Below are positions 12,229-64,000 of a stretch of 64,000 nt of DNA, one piece after another. This stretch comes from Aneurinibacillus aneurinilyticus ATCC 12856 (GTDB lineage: Bacteria > Bacillota > Bacilli > Aneurinibacillales > Aneurinibacillaceae), in assembly GCF_000466385.1 (NCBI RefSeq), contig NZ_KE952720.1:1-64000 (forward strand), given 5' to 3'. Each line of letters begins with the position of its first letter. The first letter of the stretch is position 1. The translations under genes were made by a program, and so were the position numbers. The notes under the pieces were generated by a model. The model ran no database searches. It had not been told where the DNA came from and saw only the letters and a list, made by a program, of their open reading frames with translations.

Positions 12229-12397
12229 TATATAAATTACACTTGATATTTTGACAAAGTAGCGTGGTTGGAAGTAGGAGATTCGTAAAAGAGAAGAGGT
12301 TGGATGCGCCCTGCGCTCCGGCTCCCGCCCACCGCCCTTCCTTTCTTCTTACCTCCCACCACAAAAATGTGTCGATTTATCAAATCTGATGTATATA
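12229..12397. repeat. Intergenic repeat family A, copy 1 (inside the phaRBC run)
   Basis: A 169-bp imperfect palindrome bounded by TATATA at both ends. The left arm (ATTTTGACA, GTGGTTGGAAGTAGGAGA) pairs with the right arm (CTTACCTCCCACCAC, TGTGTCGA). Closely related to copies at 22685-22858 and 26937-27139. It fills most of the phaB-phaC gap and could act as an RNA hairpin changing phaC expression. Confidence 0.75.
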
Positions 12398-26936: not shown

Positions 26937-27139
26937 TATATAAGCTACACTCGGTATTTTGACAGGGGAGTGTGGCTGGAAGGAGGAGATTCGGAAAAAG
27001 AAGAGGGTGGATGCCCCTGCTCTCCGGCAGAAGAAGGGCCAGCGTGTGTTTTTCCGACCGCTCCCGTCCACCGTCCTTCCTTCTTCTCTTACCTCCCACC
27101 ACCAAAATGTGTTGATGTATCAAATCAGATGTATATATA
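26937..27139. repeat. Intergenic repeat family A, copy 2
   Basis: The longest copy, 203 bp. Starts TATATAAG and ends in GTATATATA. TTTTGACAGGGGAGTGTGG is answered by CCACCACCAAAATGTGTTGA in inverted form, and GAAGAAGGG and CCTTCTTC occur in the inner arms. The overall order matches copy 1 from end to end. Confidence 0.75.
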
Positions 27140-50951: not shown

Positions 50952-51200
50952 AAAAAAACCCGCCCCAAAAAGGGACGAGTTTGCTCGCGGTACCACCCTT
51001 AGTTAAGGACTAAAGTCCTTCACTCATACGGATAACGGCCTATGGCTGCCCATATGCCGTCCGCCCACAACTAAGACAAGATGCGGTGCGGATTCACTCC
51101 TACGCTGTATTTCATCGCTTGACTGGGCCGATTTACACCTTCCACCGACTCTCTGTTATTTCCAGTACTCAAGCCACTACTATTACGTATTCATTGCGAA
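50952..51200 (-). promoter_or_regulatory. T-box riboswitch of tyrS
   Basis: On the minus strand the T-box AAGGGTGGTACCGCG (51000-50986) precedes a terminator stem ACTCGTCCC/GGGGCGGGT (50981-50953) ending in seven T. Upstream are the stem I marks AGAGAGTCGGTGG, and a TAC tyrosine triplet at 51109-51107 in GAAATACAG is the candidate specifier. Uncharged tRNA-Tyr would favour read-through. Confidence 0.92.
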
Positions 51201-51285
51201 TACAATGATATTGTTTTGTTGTTATTCTCATAATAACTAAAAATAGTGCAAAAATGCAACATTTATCCTCTACCACCGTCTTTAT

Positions 51286-58615: not shown

Positions 58616-60382
58616 CTATAATTTGAATTTATTTATGGACAATTGCAATTCCTGTGCAAGAACTTTAAGTCTAGCTGTAAAATTTGATAGTTCTTCGATT
58701 GAAGAAACCTGGTTTTCAACAGCTGATGTAATGCTTTCCGAACCGATAGCCACTTCTCTTGCTATTCCGGCCATTTCTTGTATAGAAGCTGCTACCTGTT
58801 CGGCTCCTGCAGAAATTTGCTGGGAAGCGGCTGATACCTCCTGAACTTGATTGTTCACATGCTCAAAAGATTTTCTGATATTCTCAAAAGCTTCACCGGC
58901 TTCATTAATGTCATTCAATCCTGCTTCAACTTCATCGGCTTCTTTTTGCATACTAGAGATAGCTTCATTAGCGTCCTCCTGCATCCGCTTAATAAAACCG
59001 GAAATTTCCTCAGCCGATTTTTTCGATTGTTCGGCGAGCTTTCTCACTTCATCCGCTACAACAGCAAAACCTTTCCCATGCTCTCCAGCACGCGCAGCTT
59101 CAATAGCCGCGTTAAGGGACAATAAATTTGTTTGCTCTGTAATTTCGGTAATTACATCCGTAATTTTTTCAATTTCCTTAGAGTGTTCTCCTAATTTTTT
59201 CACTAGCAATGTCGTGCCGTCTACCGATTTGCTAATGGATTGCATCTGTTGAATGGCCTTGGCCAGTGAAGCATTTCCATTTTGCACTTCTTTTATTGAA
59301 TCATCAGAGGTTTCTGCTACTTTTGCGGATGATCCGGCAATACGTTCAATTCCTATTGCCGTTTCTTCCATCGTACTTGCCACCTCCTCACCTGTTTGAG
59401 AAGAAGCTTCCGCACCTTGGTTCAATCCTTCAACAGTCACTGCAATTTGCTTACTCGCCTTACTCGTTTCTTCCATATTGTTCATTAATTGTTCTGATAC
59501 CGTTGCAACATGAATACTCGCATCATTTACTTTTGCAATAATATCTTTCAGTCCGCTTATCATCTCATTAATTGCATTGGCAAGCTCTCCTATTTCATCT
59601 GTAGACTTTGCCTCAATCGTCTTTACCGTCAAATCTCCTTCACTTATTCTTTTGGCTATATTGCTTACATGCAGAATAAGCTTGATTTTTTGATTAAACA
59701 GCCATATAAACACGCCCATGCAAATTAATGAAAACAGAGCAATACCAGCAGCTATAACCCCTTTTATAAGCGGAAGAGAGCCATAAAATTCTTCCGGGTA
59801 TACGGCAATACCAAGCGTCCATCCCCAGGGTTGATAATATTCTACATAACTCATCTGTGTCCGCTCTTTGGTTTCGCCTTCATTTTTCCATGTATAAGTT
59901 AGCAAACGTTCATTGGCATTGCTACTCTTACTCGCTTTTACAAGATCCTGTATTAAATAGGTTCCATCTTCAAGCTTAAATTCTTTTTGATTCTGTCCCT
60001 CATACCCTAGCGGATGCATAACCGCAAGATAATTATCGTCATATGCCCACATGTATCCTTCTTTTTTGTAGATAAAAGGTGATTTGCTTAAATCACGCAT
60101 TTTTTTATCTTCAGACAATGGACCATTAATATACTCTTTTGCTCTATTTTTGGCTTGTTCCAATGTAAGATGGCCATTTTTCACCTCTTCATCCAATACC
60201 CTGATTACAGTGACTGCACCACCGACAATTTGGTGCAAATTCTGGATACCTGCCTTCTCAAGCTCCCCTTTTGCAGCATAATAAGTGACAATACCTACTA
60301 AAGAGCTTGAAAAAATAATAGCAGCCGTTACTGCTATTATTAATTTCCATCGTATACTAAGGTTTTTCTTTCTTTTCAACAT
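58616..60382 (-). CDS. Methyl-accepting chemotaxis protein with Cache domain
   Basis: 588 aa. Membrane segment about 12-32, an extracellular single Cache domain ([20 protein letters not shown] and [18 protein letters not shown]) typical for small organic acids, a second membrane segment (about 205-225), HAMP, and the signalling hairpin with [20 protein letters not shown]. Signals to CheA. Its ATG shares a base with the HTH peptide stop (TGATG), with GAGAGG ahead. It is the main output gene of the riboswitch-controlled unit. Confidence 0.92.
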
Positions 60383-60555
60383 CACAAGACCTCTCTTTTA
60401 CGATAATTCTCGTTCATATCTTTATGCTCACGTATCCAGCGGTATATAGTTTGGCTATTTATACCATATTTTCGAGCTACTATACTGCATTTATATCCCT
60501 TCATAACTTCGCTAACAACATCATGCTTAAGTGTTAAAGAGTAATTTCTTTTCAT
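60382..60555 (-). CDS. 57-aa helix-turn-helix peptide
   Basis: Starts [20 protein letters not shown]; a helix-turn-helix follows ([19 protein letters not shown]). It resembles the N-terminal HTH of IS3-type OrfA transposase proteins but ends at 57 residues and has no second ORF. AAGGAG is six bases before the ATG. Stop and the MCP start overlap, so the two are coupled. It may be a domesticated DNA-binding peptide or a leader needed for MCP translation. Confidence 0.75.
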
Positions 60556-60621: not shown

Positions 60622-60778
60622 AAATAAAAAGGGCTATACCTGATACCGGAATTACCGAATAGGAAATAGCCTTTCACCTCTGGAAAATTTCGGTAACCCG
60701 GCTATCTTCATTCCTGCGGAACCTTAGACCCGTGGCTTTGCGTCCCTATCTTTCAATAGGTTTGCCTTTATCATTTTA
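60622..60778 (-). ncRNA. c-di-GMP-I (GEMM) riboswitch with terminator platform
   Basis: Minus strand: GGCAAACC (60766-60759), GAAA tetraloop, GGGACGCAAAGCCACGGG, CTAAGG, and GCCGGGTTACCGA (to 60690) match the GEMM-I aptamer. Then GGCTAT ... ATAGCC followed by CTTTTTATTTT (to 60622) is a terminator. The 8-base TTACCGAA (aptamer end, 60696-60689) is complementary to TTCGGTAA (60658-60651) inside the terminator, giving an antiterminator. It lies 15 bases after the EAL gene and before the HTH-MCP pair. I expect ligand to cause termination (inference). Confidence 0.9.
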
Positions 60779-60794
60779 TTTACTTTTATAACAA

Positions 60795-61517
60795 CTAGCT
60801 AAATTGTTCGGGCTTCCCCAGTAAATATCCCTGTCCTATATTAACTCCTAACAATTTAGCTATTGCCAGATCTTCCGATTTTTCAATCCCTTCTAATATT
60901 AAGTAAGCTTCATCCTTACAATAGCTTACTAATAATTCTATTAATCGTTGTTTTCTTGGACATACAGATAAATCAATTGAAAAATATCTATCCAATTTAA
61001 CAAAATCCGGTTCAAACTCTACAAGGTTTTTAAAAGAGGCAGAGCCTTTACCTACATCATCCAGTGCAATCTGAAACCCATTCTGGTGCAGAAAAGAGAG
61101 TATATTACGCATCGATTTAACATCATTTATTTCCTGGGATTCATTAATTTCTAACACTATCTCTCCTTTGGATACAGTGTAGTCAGAAAGTAATCCATCT
61201 AAAAAACAATGAAAATCAGGATGCAATAATGTAGAAGGAAAAATATTCACAAATAATGAAGTTTGTAACGCTTTATTCTTGGGTGTGTAAGAAACAATTG
61301 CCTTAAACAGTGACAAAATATCAAGTTCGTATAGCTTATCAATCCTTTCAGCATTTTGAAACAATTGCTCAGGTGAAACAAAGTATTGAGTTCGCAAAAA
61401 AGCTTCATACCCTAGTAAAGACCAATCAGAAAGAAAGTACAGTGGTTGATAGACGTGATGAAACAGCCTATTCTCAATAACTTTCTCAGTCTGTTCGTCC
61501 AGCAGCGTCTTTTTCAT
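60795..61517 (-). CDS. EAL-domain c-di-GMP phosphodiesterase
   Basis: 240 aa, a bare EAL domain with no sensor. Residues seen: E38 in GYEAFLR (EAF variant), N91, E123 in LEINES, D153-D154 in ALDDVGKG, K174 in VKLDR, E209 and E212 in LEGIEKS, and Q229 in GQGYLLGKP. Metal and catalytic positions look complete, so hydrolysis to pGpG is likely. The riboswitch begins 15 bases downstream. An upstream promoter inside the recombinase segment points at it. Confidence 0.88.
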   Translation of the reverse strand: MKKTLLDEQTEKVIENRLFHHVYQPLYFLSDWSLLGYEAFLRTQYFVSPEQLFQNAERIDKLYELDILSLFKAIVSYTPKNKALQTSLFVNIFPSTLLHPDFHCFLDGLLSDYTVSKGEIVLEINESQEINDVKSMRNILSFLHQNGFQIALDDVGKGSASFKNLVEFEPDFVKLDRYFSIDLSVCPRKQRLIELLVSYCKDEAYLILEGIEKSEDLAIAKLLGVNIGQGYLLGKPEQFS

Positions 61518-61577: not shown

Positions 61578-61615
61578 ATTTAATCTAACAAAATAGACAT
61601 TTTGTTAGATTAAAT
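61578..61615. repeat. Recombination-site candidate 1 (perfect palindrome)
   Basis: Arms ATTTAATCTAACAAAAT (61578-61594) and its exact complement (61599-61615) around AGAC. Inner elements TAATCTAACAA and TTGTTAGATTA with a roughly 10-base centre look like the paired binding arms of a tyrosine recombinase core site. It is in the leader of the EAL gene. Reverse-complemented, it matches site 2 over 27 bases. Confidence 0.7.
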
Positions 61616-61639
61616 AGAAAAAATATCTAGTCCTTTTTC

Positions 61640-61668
61640 ATTATAACTACTTCTAATTTAAAAATCGA
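61640..61668 (-). promoter_or_regulatory. Promoter inside the recombinase segment, pointing at the EAL gene
   Basis: Minus strand TCGATT (61668-61663), 17 bases, TATAAT (61645-61640). The -10 is perfect, the -35 weak. It is between site 1 and the recombinase stop, so transcription crosses site 1 into the EAL gene, with a leader of about 115 bases. Confidence 0.55.
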
Positions 61669-61705
61669 TATAGCTTTGCAGTTACATTTTTTCTTTTTTC
61701 GCTTT

Positions 61706-62269
61706 TCATAAACAAAATTTTTCCAATGCCTTATCAACCATATCATCATTAATACCTATATATCTCATTGTGATTGAAGGGCTAGAATGCCCAAATATAT
61801 ATTGTAACAATGCTACATCTTTTGATTGCTGGTAAAAATGATACCCAAATGTTTTTCGTAAAGTATGTGTACCGATAGGCCCTTCGACCCCGCAGGCTCT
61901 CGCTGCATGATTAATAATTTGCCAAGCATGCACACGGCTGATTGGCTTTCCTCCCTTTTGGGAAGGGAATAAATACTCTGAATCAGCCATTTTTCTTGAA
62001 TATCGTTCTATTTCATTCTTTAGTGTCTGTGTTATTATGGTCCTCCTTATATTTTTAGTTTTCTTTTCTTGAATGATTAAGTGCTTTGTATATTTAACAT
62101 CCATTACCCGTAGAGGCAATATATCACTAATTCTGAGACCTGAGTTGATTCCAAAAATAAATAAAAAATAATTTCTATAGGAACGACGTAGGAGGTAGTT
62201 TTTTATCTCTTGTATTTTCTCAATCTCCCGTATTGGTTCAACAGCATTTGCACCTTTTTTTGTTGTCAT
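61706..62269 (-). CDS. Small tyrosine recombinase (FimB/FimE-sized)
   Basis: 187 aa, only the catalytic domain plus a short N-terminus; most integrases exceed 280 aa. Catalytic residues: R46 in SGLRISDI, a Lys near 70-72, H135 and R138 in HTLRK, H161 in FGHSS, and Y170 in MRYIG, so it should be active. FimB and FimE, which flip the fim promoter in E. coli, have a similar size. ATG 62269 follows GGAG by eight bases; GTG 62278 is in frame. It is flanked by sites 1 and 2 with 90 and 130 bases to spare. Confidence 0.9.
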   Translation of the reverse strand: MTTKKGANAVEPIREIEKIQEIKNYLLRRSYRNYFLFIFGINSGLRISDILPLRVMDVKYTKHLIIQEKKTKNIRRTIITQTLKNEIERYSRKMADSEYLFPSQKGGKPISRVHAWQIINHAARACGVEGPIGTHTLRKTFGYHFYQQSKDVALLQYIFGHSSPSITMRYIGINDDMVDKALEKFCL

Positions 62270-62354
62270 AGAAGCCACTCCATTGTGTGAATAAATATTT
62301 AACTAATGATTCAATATGTTATATTATCTCATTCTATTTGTTTTTTGGATATAC

Positions 62355-62390
62355 TAAAAAACCTTTAAAATAAAGGCTTTTTTGCTTTTT
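62355..62390. terminator. Hairpin with T runs on both strands, next to site 2
   Basis: AAAAAACCTTTA and TAAAGGCTTTTTT pair, with T runs reading out to both sides. Reading rightward it lies just before site 2, so if the segment were inverted it would stand in front of the EAL gene. Confidence 0.6.
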
Positions 62391-62401
62391 TTAGTGTCAT
62401 T

Positions 62402-62439
62402 TGAAACATAACAAAATGTCTATTTTGTTAGATTATTCT
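62402..62439. repeat. Recombination-site candidate 2 (inverted partner of site 1)
   Basis: TAACAAAAT, GTCT, ATTTTGTTAGATTA (62409-62435) equals the reverse complement of site 1 for 27 bases; the central GTCT is the complement of AGAC. The left arm beyond that point is changed (GAAACA). Confidence 0.7.
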
Positions 62440-62518
62440 CCATATACATATAGAAAATAAAAATTTACTAAATAAATGAACGACTAGGAGAGCAGTAAAC
62501 TCCCTTAAATCAAAGAAA

Positions 62519-62548
62519 TATAGGCGGGAGACAATTCTCCCGCCTATA
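62519..62548. terminator. Terminator after the ABC transporter gene
   Basis: ATAGGCGGGAGA / TCTCCCGCCTAT around a short loop, with T-rich sequence on both sides (ATTTTATT, ATTTC). Confidence 0.85.
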
Positions 62549-62592
62549 TTTTATTAACTGATACCTACTTTACCAGACCATGAATTCTTATG

Positions 62593-64000
62593 TTATGTGG
62601 TCCTATCTTTGTACAGTAATGCAATAATCGCCATACTACACAAAAACAGAATAAACAGGACAAGAATGCTCCAATGAGCCGAAAAATTTCCGGACAATGC
62701 AGGGAACGGCTGCTGAAGAGCACTCCTACTGTTGATATTAACAATGTCTCCTCCGACTAACTCATAGCCCCATTTACTGACAGCCAGATAAAATACGACT
62801 TTTATGTATTCAGGCTTTACATAAGTGATAGGTACGAGCGCTCCTGACAAAATAATCTGGGGAACAAGTACAATAGGGACCATGCTAAGTGCTTTATCAG
62901 AATTAGAAGCAATAGCCGATATAACTAGGCCCATCATTCCCCCTGCTAATGAAAGCAGAAAAAAAGCCAACACATTCGGCCAAAACTTCGGTAAAGCAAG
63001 ACTGTACGCAACAATAGAGACAAGTAATAGCATTTGTGCTAAAGAAATAATGGACAACACACCAATTTTCGATAACAGGTACGGGACAACACGCACGCCA
63101 GCTAACCTCTCTCTTCTGTAAATCACCCGCTCTTTCACAATTTCCCGTGCCGCGTTGGAAGTTCCTAACCATATTGAGGTAAATACCATCAAGGCAATAC
63201 AATTGGACATAAAGCTTCTTCGGTTTTTCTCTTCTTGAATGTTTTGTTGCACCTCTTCTATTTTTCCTGCTGCTACAATCTGCTGAGTAATCTCCAAATC
63301 TTGCGACCGGTAGCCGCTATACTTAAATGTGGGTGCACTATGATAAAAAGCAAGGACAAGTAATAAAGGAATAATGAAAGCTTGAAGACATAGGATTAAG
63401 AGGTTTTTTCTATCTCGGCTAAGCAGTCGTATATAACGCATGGTTAAAATCTTCCATTGTTCAAAGAAAGAAAGCTGAGCAGTCGTTTTCTCCATCCCCT
63501 CGCCTGCGTGTTCAATTTGCTGTCGCCTGTTTCTGATTCGATTCCGATATTTCCGATACACAGCGGAACGTTTATATTCCTCGGTCCAACTCTTCGGATT
63601 CTTTTCCATGTCAAGCTTTCTATAAATATCTACAAAATCTTTTACACCGAAGTAATCAAGCGCTTCAGATGGGGAGCCAAAAAAAGCCAATTGTCCTTCC
63701 CGAGTAAGAAAAACAAGTTTATCACACATTCTAATATTCGCGGTAACATGGGTAACCATAATGATCGTACTGCCCTTCTGCTTCAGCTCCTCAAGAAGCT
63801 CCATTATCGCTTTCTCCAAATCCGGATCAAGCCCCGAGGTAGCTTCGTCAAGAAAAAGAAGACTAGGCTTGGTTAATAGTTCAACGCCTATGTTTACCCG
63901 CTTTCGTTGCCCGCCACTTAAATTCTTGACAGATACCGAGCGTTGGTCTGTTATTTTCACTTCTTCCAGCACTTCATTTACTCTTCTCGTTATTATGCTT
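62593..64000 (-). CDS. ABCG-type ABC transporter (ATPase then permease), 5' end outside the window
   Basis: At least 468 codons; the frame is still open at the window edge (RRVNEVLEEVKIT). Visible are the signature LSGGQRKRVNIG, Walker B with SLLFLDEATSGLDPD, the H-loop MVTHV, a linker, and an ABC2-type permease with six membrane segments after about residue 180. ATPase-before-permease order and signature fit the ABCG/White group; bacterial members often have N-terminal FHA domains, which would be outside. Probably an exporter, substrate unknown. Confidence 0.88.
   Translation of the reverse strand, partial: SIITRRVNEVLEEVKITDQRSVSVKNLSGGQRKRVNIGVELLTKPSLLFLDEATSGLDPDLEKAIMELLEELKQKGSTIIMVTHVTANIRMCDKLVFLTREGQLAFFGSPSEALDYFGVKDFVDIYRKLDMEKNPKSWTEEYKRSAVYRKYRNRIRNRRQQIEHAGEGMEKTTAQLSFFEQWKILTMRYIRLLSRDRKNLLILCLQAFIIPLLLVLAFYHSAPTFKYSGYRSQDLEITQQIVAAGKIEEVQQNIQEEKNRRSFMSNCIALMVFTSIWLGTSNAAREIVKERVIYRRERLAGVRVVPYLLSKIGVLSIISLAQMLLLVSIVAYSLALPKFWPNVLAFFLLSLAGGMMGLVISAIASNSDKALSMVPIVLVPQIILSGALVPITYVKPEYIKVVFYLAVSKWGYELVGGDIVNINSRSALQQPFPALSGNFSAHWSILVLFILFLCSMAIIALLYKDRTT

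Follow-up and report, generated by a model that had tools for sequence, protein, structure and literature searches.

Organization of the locus

The window analysed here is a stretch of 64,000 nucleotides from Aneurinibacillus aneurinilyticus ATCC 12856 (contig NZ_KE952720.1, positions 1 to 64,000). Close to its end, the minus strand carries, in this order, an ABC transporter gene, a hairpin, recombination site 2, a tyrosine recombinase gene, recombination site 1, an EAL phosphodiesterase gene, a riboswitch, an open reading frame for a helix-turn-helix (HTH) protein and a chemoreceptor gene. The features of this region are as follows.

62593-63999, minus strand: ABC transporter gene, first in the minus-strand order
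62516-62551, no strand: strong terminator-like hairpin immediately beyond site 2, found where the GGDEF gene has been lost
62490-62554, no strand: place of the missing outward GGDEF gene (about 970 bp in the sister species), deleted in the window
62406-62433, no strand: recombination site 2, inverted copy of site 1, centre TGTCTA
62355-62384, no strand: weak bidirectional terminator-like hairpin inside site 2
62300-62326, minus strand: conserved element ATATAACATATTGAAT that resembles a half-site, located upstream of the recombinase start
61706-62278, minus strand: tyrosine recombinase gene, 190 aa from GTG at 62278 or 187 aa from ATG at 62269, stop at 61706
61640-61668, minus strand: putative outward promoter (TATAAT at 61640-61645, weak -35 TCGATT at 61663-61668, 17-nt spacer), directed through site 1 toward the EAL gene
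61583-61610, no strand: recombination site 1, 11-6-11, ATCTAACAAAA TAGACA TTTTGTTAGAT
61583-62433, no strand: invertible segment with 795 bp between the sites, reversed in the congener G005 relative to the same flank genes
60795-61517, minus strand: EAL phosphodiesterase gene, 240 aa (PF00563, E 1.3e-41)
60689-60776, minus strand: c-di-GMP-I riboswitch aptamer, scoring 89.7 bits, immediately downstream of the EAL gene and followed by a terminator-like stem
60382-60555, minus strand: gene for a short HTH_Tnp_1-like HTH protein of 57 aa, following the riboswitch
58616-60385, minus strand: chemoreceptor gene (sCache_2-HAMP-MCPsignal), behind the riboswitch and the HTH open reading frame

Recombinase, sites and putative promoter are thus packed into about 0.85 kb. 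The initial annotation, made from the sequence of the window, had described a complete recombinase carried on the segment that it would flip, facing inverted sites with 27 shared bases and a non-palindromic centre, and an EAL gene beside site 1. Each of these features was recovered.

The recombinase matches Phage_integrase (PF00589, E 1.6e-26) and consists of the catalytic domain only. Its residues R49, K73, H138, R141, H164 and Y173 are invariant in nine relatives and provide the R-K-H-R-H-Y set that, within a Phage_integrase domain, marks the tyrosine recombinase superfamily. Membership in the FimB/FimE family was rejected, with scores of 51.7 and 44.6 bits against the NCBIfam models PRK09870 and PRK09871, whose cut-offs are 221 and 222. 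The best PDB match of the catalytic domain is 4a8e, a XerC-like structure. Each genome that has the recombinase holds one copy, and the genome of the window strain has no second close recombinase, its remaining candidates being distant Xer-like proteins with 21-28% identity. We infer that inversion is carried out by the recombinase of the window.

The EAL protein has E38, N91, E123, D153, D154, K174 and E209 invariant in five homologues, with the signature motif reading EAF. Given the EAL domain and its metal-binding and catalytic residues, it is predicted to be a c-di-GMP phosphodiesterase. A riboswitch was considered as a common part of all such switches and rejected, as it was found only in the window strain and its sister species (G002). 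In the latter (L091 8150-9000), the riboswitch and the HTH open reading frame are kept and the chemoreceptor gene seen in the window is absent. Two repeats or leaders elsewhere in the window may be recorded here: a T-box leader at 50968-51203 on the minus strand (Rfam RF00230, 109.9 bits), and an interspersed repeat, AAAATGTGTCGATTTATCAAATCAGATGTATATA, with 101 matches at up to 3 mismatches in the strain's own genome (reversed control, 0). The repeat occurs, for example, at 12356-12397 and 27096-27137 of the window and at L011 8301-8340, with many copies also in the sister species; its 3' end is sharply defined at TATATA, and on the 5' side, TTTTCTTACCTCCCACCACA, it fades out.

Recombination sites

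Both sites are 28 bp long and are built from symmetric 11-bp arms (ATCTAACAAAA and TTTTGTTAGAT) around an asymmetric 6-bp centre (TAGACA or TGTCTA). Between the two, 2 of 22 arm positions and none of the 6 centre positions differ. The stretches 61581-61607 and 62409-62435 are perfect inversions of each other over 27 bases, and the recombinase gene falls between the two sites. Site 1 is embedded in a perfect 38-bp palindrome (61578-61615; 17+4+17), the centre of which is non-palindromic.

The exact core TAACAAAAT-N4-ATTTTGTTA occurs four times in the 5.31-Mb genome, all copies lying within two inverted pairs. When up to 2 mismatches were allowed, the count remained at four, compared with one for a control with the reversed pattern. 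The second pair, located on contig C171, consists of facing sites 344 bp apart with the centre TAAACA/TGTTTA, and no recombinase gene was found beside it. The possibility raised in the initial annotation, that the sites might be conserved elements elsewhere in the genome unrelated to the recombinase, was not borne out, since the remaining copies form this second pair, which is flipped between sister species.

The element ATATAACATATTGAAT upstream of the recombinase start corresponds to half of a recombination-site arm. Equivalents are present at the loci L013, L096, L095 and L105, and the element persists in an A. danicus segment now devoid of the recombinase gene. It could possibly be a recombinase operator for autoregulation or an accessory binding site.

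Inversion between species

Seven genomes of the genus Aneurinibacillus were compared, including A. danicus NBRC 102444 (NZ_BJXX01000057.1, contig C57 of G001), the sister species of the window strain (G002) and a further congener (G005). The recombinase is present in four of the seven; sites and an EAL homologue are found in the same four, and the remaining three have none of these elements. In the sister species, A. danicus and G005, the segment is flanked by an EAL gene and a GGDEF gene, each reading outward. By their position, these GGDEF genes are orthologues, with 69% and 43% identity to that of the sister species; they retain the GGDEF motif and match PF00990.

Between G005 and A. danicus, the GGDEF and EAL flanks are collinear and the segment between them aligns in reverse. 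When oriented by the EAL gene, the segments of the window, the sister species and A. danicus agree with each other in orientation (81-92% identity), whereas that of G005 aligns to them at 66.5-66.7% reversed, as against 41% in the same orientation. At the second locus, alignment of the C171 segment to its counterpart in the sister species gives 80.9% reversed and 44.1% unreversed, and the HTH flank is collinear (83%). Reversed alignment at both loci, together with collinear flanks, indicates that both targets have been inverted since the species diverged, with breakpoints at the sites. The segment is thus enclosed by inverted repeats, and both orientations occur against constant flanks, between species and at two loci. 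A comparison of orientation in relatives had been proposed as a check with the initial annotation; with the segment reversed in one of four congeners relative to conserved EAL and GGDEF flanks, it supports an invertible, recombinase-carrying switch upstream of the EAL gene. The GGDEF gene of the relatives, the second target in trans and the riboswitch downstream of the EAL gene were beyond the reach of that annotation.

The same data bear on two other readings. The paired palindromes could be mere operators or terminators, at which the recombinase or a different protein binds but no recombination takes place, as their palindromic form and the promoters that they flank would allow. The two segments inverted between species, and centres that match within pairs while arms drift, make the chance of this negligible. 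Alternatively, the recombinase between terminal inverted repeats might constitute a small mobile element inserted upstream of EAL genes, its orientations reflecting separate insertions. The arrangement of a recombinase between inverted repeats would fit, as would the fact that the module of GGDEF gene, segment and EAL gene lies in differing genomic surroundings in the window and its sister species, in A. danicus and in G005. A transposable element was nonetheless rejected as an explanation and is considered very improbable: there is a single recombinase copy per genome, the pairs without a recombinase enclose promoter DNA (C171 and C162 of A. danicus), the same GGDEF and EAL flanks surround both orientations, no empty site was seen, and matched, locus-specific centres suit inversion better than insertion.

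The pair on C162 of A. danicus lies directly upstream of a second EAL gene, which a chemoreceptor gene follows. On another contig of the same species (C117; L094 7274-7380), a solitary site precedes the initial codons of an EAL gene, after which the sequence is a different one; this site appears to be the remnant of a deleted third switch.

Conservation of the 6-bp centres

Ten site pairs, taken from eight genomes or MAGs, were compared. Within pairs, the centres differ at 0 of 60 positions and the arms at 23 of 220. Strand exchange across a homologous overlap would be expected to give this pattern of matched centres in spite of drifted arms. The centre varies from locus to locus among the ten pairs, and orthologous loci retain it: TAGACA is found at the recombinase locus in three species, and TAAACA/TGTTTA can also be read at the chemoreceptor locus of the sister species. 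Distinct centres would be expected to stop the two switches of one cell from recombining with each other.

Promoter and terminator-like hairpins

In six of eight segments, a TATAAT box is found 29-32 nt inside the site at the recombinase-3' end; the 75 nt next to the opposite site contain none in any of the eight. The sequence around the box is conserved in the window, the sister species and A. danicus, and the A. danicus segment without a recombinase gene has retained the box as well. Scans for sigma-70 promoters performed no better than on shuffled sequence, and the consensus scan of the window did not call the main promoter with its weak -35; the promoter assignments consequently stand on conserved position and not on the scans. 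The TATAAT box is on this basis a putative promoter. The initial annotation had placed a TATAAT promoter inside site 1 and a terminator inside site 2, which inversion would exchange upstream of the EAL gene. The -10 element is indeed perfect (reverse complement of 61640-61645), but the -35 (TCGATT) is weak. The hairpin inside site 2 exists but is modest (-6.7 kcal/mol outward and -11.1 on the other strand), a much stronger one lying outside the site at 62516-62551. The counterpart of the inner hairpin in the sister species is strong (-19.3, z -6.9); none was found in A. danicus or G005, and the proposed exchange of promoter for terminator is weakened by the fact that the hairpin is conserved no further than the sister species.

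The C171 segment contains a better promoter candidate (TTGAAA-18-TATAAT, 11 of 12 consensus matches), which points away from the HTH-chemoreceptor operon; the flipped copy in the sister species (TTAAAA-TATAAT) points toward it. The chemoreceptor operon would accordingly be predicted to be OFF in the window strain and ON in the sister species, and the EAL gene to be ON in the assemblies of the window strain, the sister species and A. danicus. In the sister species, the site of this second inverton on the side of the S-layer gene has five arm bases missing (L092 8828-8855), and the chemoreceptor switch may be locked there in the ON orientation.

Inversion could also be real and the TATAAT box incidental, with the relevant transcript arising by read-through from the recombinase's own promoter, so that recombinase and flank gene are co-expressed. 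In its favour, the recombinase always faces the prospective ON side, G005, the genome with the flipped segment, has no TATAAT at the recombinase-3' end, and the -35 is weak. We regard this reading as unlikely in view of the fixed distance of 29-32 nt between TATAAT and site in six segments, one of them devoid of a recombinase gene, and of the upstream block conserved in three species. In G005, a terminator-like hairpin (-15.3 kcal/mol) lies between the segment and the GGDEF gene; as TATAAT is missing there too, the GGDEF-ON state is seen in no single genome.

Flanking genes and loss of the GGDEF gene

The window is collinear with the sister species apart from the GGDEF gene (about 970 bp), which is absent between 62489 and 62555. 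Since this gene is missing in the window and kept in three congeners, the layout appears toggle-like in the latter and like a simplified on/off version in the former. The switch could have become locked after this loss, inversion having stopped or being without effect in the window strain. The GGDEF deletion itself, the arm deletion at the trans site of the sister species and the single orientation seen in the assembly of the window strain would agree with this reading. Against it, the recombinase is intact with all catalytic residues, both sites have full arm cores and identical centres, and the EAL protein retains its catalytic residues, so that a locked state appears quite unlikely.

In more distantly related genomes, the segment adjoins an EAL-MCP-MCP cluster in a Tepidibacillus MAG (EAL gene frameshifted), a frameshifted HD-domain gene with MCP and CheW genes behind it in G009, and MCP-CheW and a response-regulator gene in P. 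naphthalenovorans. Judged from gene content, c-di-GMP breakdown and chemoreception recur as a theme beside segments with matched pairs. The locus L015 has a matched pair and no c-di-GMP gene nearby. A GGDEF gene of P. naphthalenovorans was rejected as a switch target because it points toward the segment and not away from it. At the examined loci of relatives from Bacillus, Anoxybacillus, Geobacillus, Roseburia and gut Melainabacteria (43-61% identity), palindromes resembling the sites were few, and neither an inverted pair of sites nor a neighbouring EAL or GGDEF gene was found; the claim consequently extends only to the Aneurinibacillus group, P. naphthalenovorans, G009, Tepidibacillus and L015.

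The 57-aa HTH protein has a relative of 52 aa beside the second inverton (L011 8349-8507), and both of these stand-alone transposase-type HTH proteins are encoded directly upstream of a chemoreceptor gene. In G009 and P. naphthalenovorans, an unrelated small protein of about 75 aa occupies the same position.

Relatives of the recombinase are also found at the end of site arrays in Domibacillus aminovorans and D. iocasae (L026 463-4549 and L065 2168-4846). These arrays consist of 28-bp palindromic sites, ATGCAACATAA-N6-TTATGTTGCAT, with variable 6-bp centres, spaced every 0.3-1.2 kb and with one or two small open reading frames between neighbouring sites. One interval, 84% identical between the two species, is enclosed by sites in each of them and has differing neighbours; one interval of L065 contains a GGDEF gene. 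In their layout, the arrays look like an integron-like gene-cassette system, from which the switch may descend.

Discussion

The locus is best explained as a self-contained DNA inversion switch, a promoter inverton that carries its own recombinase, which ancestrally set c-di-GMP synthesis against breakdown, now turns the EAL gene on and off, and flips a chemoreceptor promoter in trans (probability about 0.83). The recombinase would bind the 11-bp arms of both facing 28-bp sites, and strand exchange across the matched 6-bp centre would invert a segment of about 0.82 kb that includes the recombinase gene itself. The promoter at the recombinase-3' end would read out through the adjacent site and, in the orientation seen in the window, drive the EAL phosphodiesterase gene, with c-di-GMP breakdown ON. 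In the presumed ancestral layout, represented by three congeners, inversion would point the promoter at the GGDEF cyclase gene and thereby toggle breakdown against synthesis; in the window strain, deletion of the GGDEF gene would have reduced the switch to EAL on/off. The second target in trans would be the 344-bp promoter segment at the HTH-chemoreceptor operon, with its different 6-bp centre. Inversion may be frequent, with switching within one population and a resulting change in c-di-GMP; cells probably switch heritably between two c-di-GMP states.

In the E. coli fim switch, the small tyrosine recombinases FimB and FimE invert a promoter segment between short inverted repeats. The recombinase of the window is likewise small and consists of the catalytic domain only, and it is proposed to invert a promoter in the same manner; unlike fimB and fimE, which lie outside their segment, its gene lies inside, and by NCBIfam score it stands outside their family. 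Hin of Salmonella is a serine recombinase that needs an enhancer and has a second effect via a repressor. The layout with a recombinase gene on the inverted segment and a promoter reading out of one end is shared with Hin, but the recombinase of the window is of the tyrosine type, and in its relatives a second structural gene, not a repressor gene, lies on the other side. Xer/dif systems resemble the switch in the 11-6-11 site architecture and in the catalytic domain, which is closest to Xer-type structures; they differ in that here the N-terminal core-binding domain is missing, the arms are symmetric (one protein), the centres are locus-specific, and the sites form inverted pairs as opposed to one chromosomal site.

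Promoter inversion is already known to cause phase variation of a c-di-GMP phosphodiesterase in Clostridioides difficile, in which the phosphodiesterase genes pdcB (Cdi2) and pdcC (Cdi3) lie behind invertible elements flanked by inverted repeats (PMC9286219, PMC5903667; reviewed in PMC11868660). For pdcB, orientation was shown by experiment to set phosphodiesterase expression and the c-di-GMP level, with the recombinase not identified; the element comprises 174 bp with imperfect 19-bp repeats and is located 840 bp from the gene (PMC9286219). The window shares with pdcB and pdcC the invertible sequence with inverted repeats upstream of a phosphodiesterase gene. It differs from pdcB in that the segment carries the recombinase and, in the congeners, has a cyclase gene opposite, neither of which has been described for pdcB; moreover, PdcB is a PAS-GGDEF-EAL protein, whereas the EAL domain of the window stands alone. 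No description of an inversion toggle between cyclase and phosphodiesterase was found in the open-licence literature, which is not proof of its absence.

A wider proposal, which we put forward tentatively and at somewhat less than even odds, is a heritable toggle in which one promoter points at either cyclase or phosphodiesterase, the chemoreceptor operon is served in trans with the centres as addresses, and, in the window strain and its sister species, the riboswitch feeds the outcome back on another HTH-chemoreceptor unit; descent from an integron-like cassette system may also apply. The 6-bp centre appears to serve as an address that separates several switches in one cell, with a possible use in synthetic biology. 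The genomes and loci at hand allow the study of the origin of invertons, of their spread to new targets and of how they become locked. If true, the layout with cyclase and phosphodiesterase would represent a two-way genetic memory for the decision between motile and sessile states, beyond a simple on/off switch.
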